The notes under the pieces: generated by a model | The model's input: the letters and a program-made list of their open reading frames with translations, nothing else | The model's database searches: none | Told to the model about the DNA's origin: nothing | Assembly: GCF_013623775.1 (NCBI RefSeq) | Contig: NZ_JABFAM010000001.1 | Location: 1-64,000, forward strand | Reading direction: 5' to 3' | Source of the DNA: Rufibacter sp. XAAS-G3-1 | GTDB taxonomy: Bacteria; Bacteroidota; Bacteroidia; Cytophagales; Hymenobacteraceae | DNA: 64,000 bases | Shown: in pieces, positions 6,789 to 62,862 of the stretch | How positions within the stretch are numbered: the stretch's first letter is position 1 | Layout of the letters: the number at the start of each line of letters is the position of its first letter | Made by a program: the position numbers and the translations under genes

Positions 6789-7199
6789 TTGGTGCGCCTT
6801 GGAAGATGGTAGAGCGCCAGAACCCACCCCTATCCCTCCCAAGAGGGGAATACGCCTTTGCAGGAGATAGAAAAAAGGCATGCCTGGTCTCTACGGGTTC
6901 TATCATCGCCGCTGCTACTTACATTCCCCAATTCCAGTCTTCCCCGAGCGCGCCTCGCTTTTGGCCCTAGATGAACCCCCACTAAGAGAGACCGGCAGTA
7001 CAGACCGAAAGGGCAGTGCCAGAGGGGAAGACGGGGCCCCGCGGCCGTGAGCGCGTACCGCCGAAGATGAAACAATACAGCACTTGCACCCACGCAGGGA
7101 ACGGACAAGCCGAGGCAACAGCAAACTGCGTGCACAACAGTGACCAAGGGAAGACCTGCCAATTCCTCCTAAAGAAGCCAGTTCCAGGCAGAGGTTAAG
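6789..7199. repeat. GC-rich structured repeat, copy A
   Basis: Begins with a module shared with copy C (GGTG.GCCTTGGAAGATGGT, then ACCCACCCCTATCCCTCCC and GGGGAATACGCCTTTGCAGG). The core from about 6927 contains CAGTCTTCCCCGAGCGCG, CCTCGCTTTTGGCCCTAGA, GACCGAAAGGGCAG, AGAGGGGAAGACGGGGCCCC and GCGGCCGTGAGCGC. TCTTCCCC can pair with GGGGAAGA across about 90 nt. The tail has TGCACCCACGCA facing TGCGTGCAC and ends CCAGGCAGAGGTTAA. No conserved reading frame among copies. It fills most of the gene-free gap 6572-7291; 6671-6788 shows only a weak palindrome (about 6711-6743). Confidence 0.75.
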
Positions 7200-20254: not shown

Positions 20255-20608
20255 TCCGAGGAGGGGAATACGCCTTTGCAGGGGAAGGGAATGCGTGGCA
20301 GAGACAAGGCAGTGCCTGGTCTCTACAGGTACAATTATCACCTCTTTCTCTACTTTCCCCAGTTCCAGTCTTCCCCGAGCGCGCCTCGCTTTTGGCTATA
20401 GAAAGGCAGGAGCTAAGAGCAGAGGACTTCTCAGGCCGAAAGGGCAGCGCGAGAGGGGGAGACGGGGCCCCGCGGCCGTGAGCGCATACCGCCAAAGCTG
20501 AAACAATACTGCACGTGCACCCACGCAAAAGCGGACAAGCCAGGGGAACAGCAAACTGCGTGCACCTGCCACTCTCCCGGAAGAAACTATTTCTAAGCAG
20601 ATACTAAA
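20255..20608. repeat. GC-rich structured repeat, copy B
   Basis: Starts GAGGAGGGGAATACGCC, then a short palindrome (AGACAAGGCAGTGCCTGGTCT). Core from 20356 has the same blocks as copy A, with CCTCGC facing GCGAGAGG and CTTCCCC facing GGGGGAG; both differ slightly from A in ways that largely keep pairing. Ends near CTAAGCAGATACTAA. Confidence 0.75.
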
Positions 20609-27227: not shown

Positions 27228-27357
27228 AGTCTGGAGACTCGCTTCATCCCAGTCACAAGACTGGAGTCTCGCGCCAGTTAATTTTAACAGCCTGGTTTCG
27301 CTGTACCGCTAGCTCCAAAGACCTCGTAGTGCGCGCAGCTCCTACGAGTGTCTATGC
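27228..27357. repeat. Two short dispersed repeats (GAGACTCGC and CCTCGTAG families)
   Basis: GTCTGGAGACTCGCTTCATC and GACTGGAGTCTCGCGCCAG (27228-27280) recur near 39131 (inverted) and 56612. GACCTCGTAGTGCGC with TCCTACGAGTGTCT (27317-27357) recurs at 39064 (inverted), 56474 and 62165. Confidence 0.65.
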
Positions 27358-27382
27358 CAAGGCCGTTTTCAGCCTGTTTTCT

Positions 27383-27441
27383 CTAAAACGGTTCTACACC
27401 TGTGAGGTCTTGGAGACCTCACAGGTGTAGAACCGTTTTAG
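27383..27441. repeat. Perfect 28 bp stem, 3 nt loop
   Basis: CTAAAACGGTTCTACACCTG plus TGAGGTCT, loop TGG, then the exact reverse complement. It is flanked on both sides by GTTTTAGGC-type palindromes (27363-27391 and 27432-27471) that share its ends. The core word CCTGTGAGG...CCTCACAGG recurs at 51208. Confidence 0.85.
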
Positions 27442-31616: not shown

Positions 31617-31680
31617 TACCCAGAAATCCATTAAAAAGAGCAAGCCATATGGCTTGCTCTTTTTAATGGATTTCTGGGTA
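31617..31680. repeat. 64 bp perfect palindrome (terminator-like)
   Basis: Left arm TACCCAGAAATCCATTAAAA then AGAGCAAGCCAT; the right arm is its exact reverse complement with no spacer. The centre AAAAAGAGCAAGCC/GGCTTGCTCTTTTT has the form of a bidirectional terminator between the convergent kinase and DUF4890-like genes; it ends one base before the latter's stop codon. Confidence 0.9.
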
Positions 31681-35522: not shown

Positions 35523-36100
35523 ATGGTGGGCCTTAGAAGGAGATGGTGACGCGCCGAAACCCACCCCTCCCCCCTGAGGAGGGGAATACGCCTTAGCAGG
35601 GGAAAGGAATGCAACGTGAACTCAGGAATTTTCCAAGTCCATCCCAACCTTGCTGTTCGGGAGTTCTACTCCCGAATTTGTCTGCTGCGGAGTTCCACTC
35701 CGCCGGGAACCACGGGCAAAAGAAGGGGAGTGGAACTCCGGAAGAGCGATTTAATGCAACCACTAATCAGTACATGCTATGGTCTTACTTACTTTCCCAG
35801 TTCCAGTCTTCCCCGAGCGCGCCTCGCTTTTGGCCCTAGATGAACATTAGCTAAGAGAAGAGAACTTCACAGGCCGAAAGGGCAGTGCGAGAGGGGAAGA
35901 CGGGGCCCCGCGGCCGTGAGCGCTTAGCGGAAGCTATGAAACAATACAGTACCTGCATCCACGCAAATAGCAGCCAAGCCGAGGGAACAGCAAACTGCAT
36001 GCACCTGCTAACCTCCATTTAACATGCGGATAAACCAAGGGAACACCGTAAGGCATGCACAAACTATCACTCTACAAAAGCCATTTCCAGGCAGAGGCTA
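35523..36100. repeat. GC-rich structured repeat, copy C, with an internal MITE fragment
   Basis: Opens like copy A (GGTGGGCCTTAGAAGGAGATG, ACCCACCCCTCCCCCCTGAG, GGGGAATACGCC). An internal fragment of the 229 bp MITE (35649-35745) is inserted or retained here. The core 35795-36004 has intact pairing segments TCTTCCCC/GGGGAAGA, CTCGC/GCGAG and GGCC/GGCC. The tail closes CCAGGCAGAGGCTAA. It fills most of the gap 35488-36161. Confidence 0.75.
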
Positions 36101-56192: not shown

Positions 56193-56758
56193 GGGTTTGG
56201 TTTGTTTGCAGTTGGCTTTTCAGAGGATAGAAGTTAGGAAAAATATCTTGTTTTAGACCACTTTTTCAAAAAACAGCCTTAAAACAGATTCTGCCGCACT
56301 GGCGCGCGTCTTAAGATAACGGGTACTCTCTGATTACCCTCGCTGCAAGAGCAGCGACATACACATTGCTGGTCATCAACGGCCTCTACTCCAACGATGG
56401 CCTTTCAACCACCTCGCCCTCCGGCACCCCTCCTGTTTTAGGAGTTTTTCTGCCTAGCGCCGCTATGCCGTTTGCCCCAAAGACCTCGTAGCGTCTGGAA
56501 GACCTGCGAGCGTCTGTGCCGGTTGCCTTCCCTTTTCGCCAATCAGGAGATTGGCTGTCCTTTGGTGCGTAGAGCGCGGCCGCTAACTCTACGCACAGCA
56601 ATAATTCATCTTGGCTCCCGGCGAGTCTGGAGACTCGCTTCATCCACAGTCACGAGTTTGAAAACTCGCGCCAGAGGTCTTAAATAAAGAAGCGTTTTAG
56701 GCCAGTTTTTGAGAAAACTGACCTAAAACGCTCCATAGAATTGTCTCTAAAATGCTTT
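56193..56758. repeat. Spacer filled with dispersed repeats
   Basis: Holds a palindrome at 56249-56287; a block 56412-56522 (GGCACCCCTCCTGTTTTAGG, then CCTCGTAGCGTCTGGAAGAC and GCGAGCGTCTGTGCC) that recurs at 62101-62212; GAGTCTGGAGACTCGCTTC with ACTCGCGCCAG (56612-56675); and a well-paired palindrome 56691-56732 (AGCGTTTTAGGCCAGTTTT/GAAAACTGACCTAAAACGCT). No gene seen. Confidence 0.65.
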
Positions 56759-62076: not shown

Positions 62077-62450
62077 GCGGGAACGCACCAGTAACCACCC
62101 CGCCCTTTGGGCACCCGTCCTAAATTAGGAGGGGAGTTTTTGCCTGCCGCTTTACGGCGGCCCCAATGACCTCGTAGCGTCTGGTAGACCGGCGGGCGTC
62201 TGTGCCTGTAGTCTTGAAATGCGTGGCCCTGCTGGTGTGAACATCCCCTTCGCCCCCTTCAAAGGGAAAGTCTCTGCTTGGCAGACGCTATTGGGAGATT
62301 AAATGGAGAGCAGGTAACAGGGTTTGTATGGCGCAGATGTACTTCCGTGACTTACACAAAAGAACAAGTCACGGAAGTACATCCGGGCCATAGGGCAGCA
62401 GTACGCCAAAAGCAGTACGCCTTGGGCAGGCTTCTCTCCTTGGCTAAGGC
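62077..62450. repeat. Dispersed short repeats after pepD
   Basis: 62101-62212 is the second copy of the block at 56412. 62327-62393 is the TATGGCGC/ACTTCCGTGACT inverted repeat (partner of 27104), with AGTCACGGAAGTACATCC on the right arm. No gene seen. Confidence 0.65.
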
Positions 62451-62730: not shown

Positions 62731-62862
62731 ACCAGTTCCAGCCTTTTGCTTGAGGGCGGAAGGCGGGGCCCCGCGGCCGTGAGCGCACGGAGAGAAAAAA
62801 TGAAACAGCACAGCGCATAACTAACGCAAAAGACCGCTCCTCCAAAGCATCAGCAAAAGCCA
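62731..62862. repeat. GC-rich structured repeat, copy D (short form)
   Basis: CCAGTTCCAGCCTTTTGCTT, then GAGGGCGGAAGGCGGGGCCC and CGCGGCCGTGAGCGC. The CGGGGCCCCGCGGCCGTGAG block is identical to copies A-C, while the upstream hairpin is about 80 nt shorter; GCCTT/AAGGC replaces the TCTTCCCC/GGGGAAGA stem, so a base-paired stem is kept with different bases. Confidence 0.7.

Follow-up and report, generated by a model that had tools for sequence, protein, structure and literature searches.

What is the GC-rich sequence that recurs between genes of Rufibacter sp. XAAS-G3-1, and what keeps its copies alike? The window analysed here is the whole stretch of 64,000 nucleotides (nt) at the start of contig NZ_JABFAM010000001.1 (G000:C11:1-64000, G000 being the bacterium's own genome). 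A block of 20 bases, CGGGGCCCCGCGGCCGTGAG, stands exactly on its + strand at 7032, 20463, 35901 and 62764, in the four copies (A to D) described by an initial annotation of the window, which had called the block identical in all of them; in shuffled sequence the block has a mean of 0.02 matches, and four were never reached in 100 shuffles. Working from the letters alone, that annotation proposed a structured RNA or a new mobile element. The reading favoured here, at a probability of roughly 0.6, is that the sequence belongs to a structured element of RNA type, non-coding and found in Bacteroidota, dispersed in many copies and absent from Rfam, which would be transcribed, would have a role as RNA and would have its copies overwritten by one another.

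A dispersed, multi-copy family

Four copies was a large underestimate. The XAAS-G3-1 genome, 5.30 Mb in 73 contigs, contains the block 133 times with no more than one mismatch, 63 times forward and 70 times reverse, and the reversed block, as a control, has no match there. A covariance model (R1) was built from an alignment of 64 family cores (A2), which derives from 76 diversity-filtered cores by removal of nine near-duplicates from XAAS-G3-1 and three cores with a misplaced start; one core, L110, was re-bounded. The annotation had named a covariance-model search of the genome and its relatives as the check to make, and that search returns at least 150 copies in XAAS-G3-1, the weakest of those listed being copy D (E-value 1.9e-9), together with matches in 64 of 200 genomes of the same family, in three of six genera, up to 18 candidates being scored in each genome. 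Several genomes of group g3 hold only 1-9 copies, genome G012 has 52, and seven genomes of the more distant genus g4 have 44, 52, 22, 23, 25, 45 and 3; across the nine genomes of the family counted beyond 18 hits, eight carry from 22 to at least 150 copies and the ninth carries 3. Among the matches listed in named genomes, the block itself is present in Rufibacter species, Sabulibacter ruber and Pontibacter.

A wider model, R2, was run on 291 genomes of the order and matches 18 of them. Eight of the 18 belong to other families and hold 1-5 copies each (G209, G355, G362, G217, G408, G430, G251 and G308), the G308 match being weak (E 5.6e-4) and left out of the argument. In a sample of the phylum, R2 matches four of 395 genomes, one of them (G815) from another order. 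The model matches show a dispersed, multi-copy family found mainly in its own bacterial family, within Bacteroidota.

The earlier remark that no named family fits still stands: Rfam release 15 gives no match at gathering in the window, and a search of seven family loci at E-values up to 5 gives five weak matches, none of which overlaps the core. Among the matches listed in the open-access literature, no such element is described for Rufibacter, Pontibacter or relatives. A phage or plasmid origin is rejected or at least weakened, since viral contigs hold no exact block match and plasmids and phages no match to copy C. By eye, the 52 copies of G012 (24 on the + strand, 28 on the −) show no strong strand bias between replichores.

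Fold and strand of the core

The interval 20255-20608 given by the annotation takes in a leader and a tail as well; better bounds for the core span 120 nt, the exact core length of 113 of 150 XAAS-G3-1 copies. With core bounds set by the covariance model, the features in the window are:

6935..7054, + strand: structured core of copy A (R1 match, E 5.1e-23)
20366..20485, + strand: structured core of copy B, 120 nt (R1 match, E 3.6e-24; block exact)
20368..20376, + strand: copy B, 5' arm of outer stem P1, pairing with 20455-20463
20381..20384, + strand: copy B, 5' arm of stem P1b, pairing with 20447-20450 and adjoining the GA-rich internal loop
20390..20397, + strand: copy B, 5' arm of inner stem P2, pairing with 20434-20441 in the consensus fold of the XAAS-G3-1 copies
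20398..20433, + strand: copy B, apical domain, a hypervariable mosaic loop
20434..20441, + strand: copy B, 3' arm of inner stem P2
20447..20450, + strand: copy B, 3' arm of stem P1b
20455..20463, + strand: copy B, 3' arm of outer stem P1 (from covariation and predicted fold)
20466..20477, + strand: copy B, hairpin P3, GGCC-CCGC-GGCC, invariant within A2
20482..20484, + strand: copy B, GCG, candidate pseudoknot partner of the P3 loop CGC (20471-20473)
20486..20570, + strand: copy B, 3' tail with one GCCAAGGGAACAGC-type repeat unit (repeat family D9)
35804..35923, + strand: structured core of copy C (R1 match, E 7.4e-25)
35924..36075, + strand: copy C, 3' tail holding a tandem pair of D9 repeat units, at 35966 and 36022
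62739..62786, + strand: internally deleted core of copy D, P1 plus P3/pseudoknot only (R1 match, E 1.9e-9)

Alignment and fold prediction show the order of the parts: P1, a GA-rich internal loop, P1b, P2, an apical domain that varies between a loop and a three-way junction with two hairpins, and the P3 hairpin, whose loop likely pairs with the downstream GAGCG as a pseudoknot. The predicted folds of copies B and C contain the outer pairing TCTTCCCC/GGGGAAGA (in B, GGGGGAGA) and the inner GGCC/GGCC, both of which had been read from the letters. A further proposed stem, CCTCGC/GCGAG, has its letters in the sequence; in the predicted fold, however, it is the GCGC next to them that pairs, with GCGC/GTGC. 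Copy D does have the respelt yet paired outer stem GCCTT/AAGGC ascribed to it; it is an internal deletion in which everything above the outer stem is gone, and in R. sediminis a full copy (L098) stands in the same intergenic region.

The stems differ in how they vary. P1 has two-sided compensatory changes at six of nine pairs over the 64 cores, and its spelling differs strongly between subtypes: TCTTCCCC/GGGGAAGA, GCCTTTCGG/CCGGAAGGC and GTCCTGGGGGTGAGC/GCTCACCCCCAGGAC. In P2 (A2 columns 22-28 with 90-96) the two-sided changes fall at five of six pairs. P1b shows a G-U/G-C exchange at one pair and no two-sided change within A2, and genus g4 has GGGC/GCCC there in place of GCGC/GCGC. Wider homologs give P3 as GGCC-NNNN-GGCC with a variable loop, the arms being GTCC/GGAC in L206 and L222. 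At the P1/P1b junction, GA/GA letters occur in several subtypes and in g4, and Watson-Crick letters in type 3, L066 and L098; a kink-turn, defined by tandem sheared GA pairs beside a 3-nt bulge, was considered there in the light of these letters. The apical part is a loop in XAAS-G3-1 and two hairpins in other subtypes (predicted folds of L033 and L034). In the XAAS-G3-1 copies the 3' tail holds one or more ∼55-nt tandem units (for example window 35966-36072), and these vary by discrete alternative modules, as the apical loop does.

That the structure is under selection, as the annotation had argued from changed bases with kept pairing, is supported by the alignment. RNAalifold assigns 23 pairs to the 64 cores, and for 11 of these one or more sequences have both partners changed. 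For the structure with the stems named above, likewise of 23 pairs, 96.0% of cells are paired, compared with 84.2% after shuffling, and 148 cells are changed on both sides, compared with 44.2; none of 500 shuffles reached either value. When one arm is slid by 1-3 columns as a control, pairing falls to 45-55%. Among the 113 XAAS-G3-1 copies of 120 nt, stem letters depart from the majority in 1.7% of cases and unpaired letters in 13.3%.

The wobble pairs bear on the strand. Stem cells over the 64 cores include 140 G-T and 4 A-C oppositions; G-T occurs in 10 of the 23 pair columns and A-C in three, and three columns with common G-U give most of the 140. A strand-neutral DNA palindrome predicts G-T and A-C in equal numbers, so this imbalance points to RNA of this strand. 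In 112 XAAS-G3-1 copies (L242 being left out), single transitions in stems give G-T 47 times and A-C 13 times; without pair 8-93, which holds one common polymorphism, the counts are 26 and 10 (p 0.011, a guide only, since the copies exchange sequence). In all seven cores folded, the folding energy is lower than that of the complement, with z-scores from -0.6 to -6.9. Single-stranded DNA of the element's polarity may also be compatible with the wobble and energy data.

Support for the pseudoknot comes from a larger set of homologs, 85 of 107 of which have a perfect 3-bp partner for the P3 loop. The loop/partner spellings are CGC/GCG (36), GCC/GGC (34), CCC/GGG (9), CTC/GAG (3), CAC/GTG (2) and TGC/GCA (1), and 31 of 52 distinct combinations pair, compared with 17.8 after shuffling (maximum 26). 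Between the two variable loop modules, a mutual-information analysis finds no consistent distant complementary pairs; the strongest pairs are neighbours.

Several observations pull the other way. Two of the five covariation measures computed are not clearly above shuffles: the number of pairs with two-sided change is 11 against 9.0, a value reached by 24 of 500 shuffles, and the number of further pair types is 28 against 27.7, reached by 270 of 500. Single-sequence z-scores are modest for copy B (-2.0) and show no effect for L036 (-0.61), and the complement of L034 has the more extreme score (-7.35 against -5.97). For the other 22 of the 107 homologs there is no perfect 3-bp match to the P3 loop. 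Even so, the element is very likely a structured one of this strand. Protein coding is unlikely: the annotation had read no conserved frame in the window copies, and 35 of 150 model-bounded core lengths in XAAS-G3-1 are not multiples of three.

Exchange among copies and matching positions between species

Short modules, joined in many combinations about a mostly constant CTAAGAG, make up the variable loop as a mosaic. Linkage was measured at common two-letter sites across the core plus 28 nt, using those 113 of the 150 copies whose core is exactly 120 nt long. The mean r2 is 0.28 at 1-2 nt and then falls through 0.17, 0.15 and 0.033 to 0.008 at 50-89 nt and 0.013 at 90-147 nt, the value for unlinked sites being 0.009; at 50-89 nt, 180 of 207 site pairs show all four gametes, each in three or more copies. 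Clonal descent from a few master copies would leave the two ends of the element linked, so the near-zero linkage indicates exchange among resident copies. Very probably, then, the copies of one genome form a recombining population that exchanges sequence. They would overwrite one another by ectopic gene conversion or by template switching seeded by near-identical stems, a process that would keep the stems uniform and shuffle the loop.

The same process could act on copies that have kept their place since species diverged. Of 91 sampled foreign copies, 20 lie in the same flanking-gene gap as a copy in XAAS-G3-1; all 20 are among the 76 from Rufibacter and Sabulibacter, and they involve 12 XAAS-G3-1 loci; L235 did not enter the site comparisons. 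The observed 26% is a lower bound, the XAAS-G3-1 flanks being 1.5-kb, and compares with ∼5% expected by chance (150 copies in ∼2,800 intergenic regions, a number extrapolated from the window's density of 34 genes per 64 kb) or ∼8% if only gaps over 150 nt are counted. Orientation is the same in 19 of the 20 comparisons and at 11 of the 12 loci (p 0.006); the pair L084/L246 differs. The cores at matching sites are no more alike for it: identity is 0.714 in 19 matched pairs (L098/D was left out, D being 48 nt), 0.721 to unmatched XAAS-G3-1 copies and 0.867 within the XAAS-G3-1 genome. Over 12 groups, identity is 0.85 within species and 0.71 between them. One such site lies 5' of a gene that we take, from reading its protein sequence by eye, to encode a putative M16-type peptidase: R. 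hautae and Rufibacter sp. SYSU D00344 have type 2 there, R. ruber has type 3, and R. immobilis and XAAS-G3-1 have two variants of type 1 between them. These comparisons show copies at matching sites carrying the spelling of their own genome and not each other's.

Concerted evolution at fixed positions is the simplest reading of this pattern, and independent re-insertion in the same orientation a less likely one. The principal rival holds that the shared positions are hot spots filled independently in each species, with turnover of subtypes in place of concerted evolution. In its favour, subtypes look like bursts and some are common to several species, with type 2a leading in several groups; the junctions of shared sites cannot be aligned base by base, the intergenic flanks being too diverged, which leaves room for re-insertion into the same gap; and copies B and C show gain or loss. 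Two further observations count against the favoured reading: none of 15 Pontibacter copies shares a site with XAAS-G3-1, and in three of the 19 pairs (L118, L099 and L113) the matched copy is nearer than at least 92% of sampled XAAS-G3-1 copies, some trace of common descent surviving there. The agreement in orientation tells against hot spots, as do the mosaic loops and near-zero linkage, which place the exchange among copies resident in one genome. On balance hot-spot filling is unlikely, although not far-fetched, and the matching sites probably reflect concerted evolution rather than re-insertion, the 20 comparisons resting on 12 XAAS-G3-1 loci. A bolder idea, which must be rated improbable, is that a homing-like process maintains the ∼150 copies as a freely recombining pool: diverged copies at fixed positions would be replaced under the guidance of the folded RNA, or of the corresponding single-stranded DNA, and the apical domain would be left free to differ.

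Movement, genomic setting and known systems

The proposal of a new mobile element finds partial support. Copy B is absent from the matching gap in all seven genus mates with both flanks visible (15 were searched, with blastn and R1), the gap being 309-480 nt in the genus mates and about 950-1040 nt in XAAS-G3-1, and copy C is absent in three of three (G057, G006 and G063). These empty sites yield no exact boundary for B or C, the intergenic DNA being too diverged. Three families of candidate mobilising enzyme give no partner, as set out below.

Such insertion or absence polymorphisms would suit a miniature inverted-repeat transposable element (MITE), that is, a non-autonomous derivative of an ordinary DNA transposon in which the fold is only a long subterminal palindrome. 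Two further loci lean the same way at first sight. In G815, copy L351 is bounded by a terminal inverted repeat of 17 bp, with a duplication of 7 bp in the flanks; the same inverted repeat also encloses inserts without the core. In G019, ten contig starts picked for a nearby copy all show an end of an IS4-family insertion sequence (IS), then the near-palindrome CCCTAAATTAGGG, then a copy (L179-L188), which puts an IS4-family transposase between paired elements; the assignment is to NCBIfam NF033590, with each half below the cut-off. The IS ends are near-identical while the adjoining copies differ and abut CCCTAAATTAGGG, so the arrangement reads as target-specific insertion of the IS into element pairs. 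PMC1525189 reports on insertion sequences that target repetitive extragenic palindromes (REPs). No terminal inverted repeats were noticed in the copies of the own genus that were viewed, no systematic search having been made, and dead MITEs are not expected to hold stems at 1.7% with loops far more diverged. A MITE is accordingly a rather improbable explanation. The G815 repeats themselves (L351, L357 and L358), AACGTGTTGTGCTATTA-like and 17 bp long around small inserts of differing content, one with a 7-bp duplication, look like a cargo-swapping MITE family.

REPs offer the closest parallel among dispersed repeats. Like REPs and their compound forms, bacterial interspersed mosaic elements (BIMEs) and REPINs (the GTAG and CGTC families), the element has many dispersed intergenic copies at gene ends and heterogeneous loops. 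In g4 it often forms head-to-head inverted pairs, with arms 71-92% complementary in four regions measured; a head-to-head inverted arrangement is described for REP dimers in PMC3733652. On the view that it is a DNA palindrome of this kind and owes its movement to a REP-associated tyrosine transposase of the Y1 type (RAYT), the Y1_Tnp matches in 23 of 26 genomes tested and 20 of 21 carriers, many of them weak, would be in its favour. Yet G017, with at least 18 copies, has no Y1_Tnp match, and when 30 of the matching Y1_Tnp loci were retrieved, 26 of which belong to carriers, none held the core, so that the link to a Y1 transposase seen for REPs is missing in the loci examined. The element is unlike REPs in form too: its core is ∼120 nt long, folds into several helices, forms a junction in some subtypes, likely includes a pseudoknot and carries strand-specific wobbles, where a REP is a palindrome of 20-40 bp. 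The letters at the hairpin foot vary between copies, and in the place of a GTAG or CGTC tag, read on the reverse complement, subtypes ending GACGGGG have CGTC, those with the ending GGCGGGG have CGCC and the g4 copies compared have CGTT. A REP-like origin is consequently quite doubtful.

Apart from this element, a CTCGTAG...CTACGAG-type repeat stands in the window at 27312-27367, 56474-56529 and 62160-62215, and also (L383) adjoins the one Y1_Tnp (RAYT) match of the XAAS-G3-1 genome (G000:C3:108149-108373); it may be the REP family of that RAYT.

Quasi-palindromes can also acquire matched changes by DNA template switching, which alters both arms together, and copies that clearly exchange sequence give it scope to mimic structural selection. 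It predicts neither a bias of G-T over A-C (140 against 4) nor pairing of the P3 loop outside its hairpin, where five recurring loop/partner spellings match, and is very unlikely to have produced the covariation. A guide-RNA scaffold of TnpB, IscB or a similar RNA-guided nuclease can hardly be the answer: omega RNAs, whose scaffolds carry a terminal pseudoknot and whose flanks vary, have a general layout that the element resembles, but the TnpB zinc ribbon (PF07282) is found in none of 26 carriers, and the 3' flank is semi-conserved, not copy-specific.

RVT_1 is present in 10 of the 26 carriers and absent from 16, which speaks against a reverse-transcriptase-dependent element (retron or group II). 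The two RVT_1 matches in XAAS-G3-1 lie at G000:C7:79894-80604 and G000:C8:27951-28382, in open frames of 638 and 1041 aa. Neither presence patterns nor loci support Y1 transposase, reverse transcriptase or TnpB as partner, and the want of a protein partner among these three families counts against the favoured reading. The 597 open reading frames neighbouring copies, once clustered, are by eye ordinary genes and repeat-derived frames, with no shared mobile gene. New copies would arise from time to time.

The genomic setting suggests how the element might come to be transcribed. By a codon-usage gene call, XAAS-G3-1 copies occupy 63 convergent and 9 divergent gaps, and between co-directional genes 36 are sense and 14 antisense (p 0.0026); 28 further copies have a callable neighbour on one side only. 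Sense and antisense copies number 5:1 in Pontibacter and 14:4 in g4. Three results detract from a tie to the upstream gene: the sense bias is weak in the other Rufibacter/Sabulibacter genomes (19:14), a cruder gene call on 127 copies gives 14:11, and the Bacteroidota-type promoter TAnnTTTG stands upstream of 4 of 150 copies, the shuffled level being 3.7, on which ground a promoter of the element's own is rejected or at least weakened. The element mostly follows genes; its sense bias is clear in XAAS-G3-1 and g4 and weak in the other Rufibacter set. It would then occupy 3' untranslated regions (3'-UTRs) and be transcribed as part of the upstream gene's 3'-UTR; selection would act on the folded RNA, whose role would most probably be that of an RNA-end or RNA-protein element with recognition in trans. 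That it is transcribed within 3'-UTRs and that a host factor binds the RNA is a tentative proposal, less likely than not.

Other repeats share the window. Palindromes of the form GTTTTAGGCCTGTTTTC...AAAACAGGCCTAAAACG, with diverse arms, occupy 24 places from 3613 to 61474 and make up a second abundant intergenic repeat family. A TCCTGGAAGGATCTTG...CAAGATCCTTCCAGGA family, with ∼30-bp arms around a variable middle, occurs at 2158, 3828, 5519, 11411, 39251 and 54600. Two perfect inverted repeats lie at 31617-31680 (32 bp without spacer) and 27383-27441 (28 bp with a 3-bp spacer).

Two further known systems invite comparison. Structured non-coding RNA motifs of the Rfam class likewise have covarying stems, conserved unpaired letters and no coding capacity; the element differs from them in its very high copy number and in having no Rfam match. 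Integron attC sites are folded, ∼120 nt long and species-biased in spelling, with a variable apical part and a position behind genes, all of which the element shares. Unlike attC sites, it is dispersed genome-wide rather than held in a cassette array, and its wobble asymmetry is of RNA type.

What is new beyond the initial annotation is the scale of the family and the apparent genome-wide rewriting of its copies. The usual view treats repeats scattered through bacterial genomes as simple palindromes or as mobile DNA that has died. In this family the conserved feature is an RNA-type fold, likely with a pseudoknot; it persists across genera, and thinly across the order, at copy numbers that reach at least 150 per genome. 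The element offers a natural system in which to measure ectopic gene conversion of short dispersed bacterial repeats, and it is a candidate new class of structured RNA whose binding partner could be fished for.
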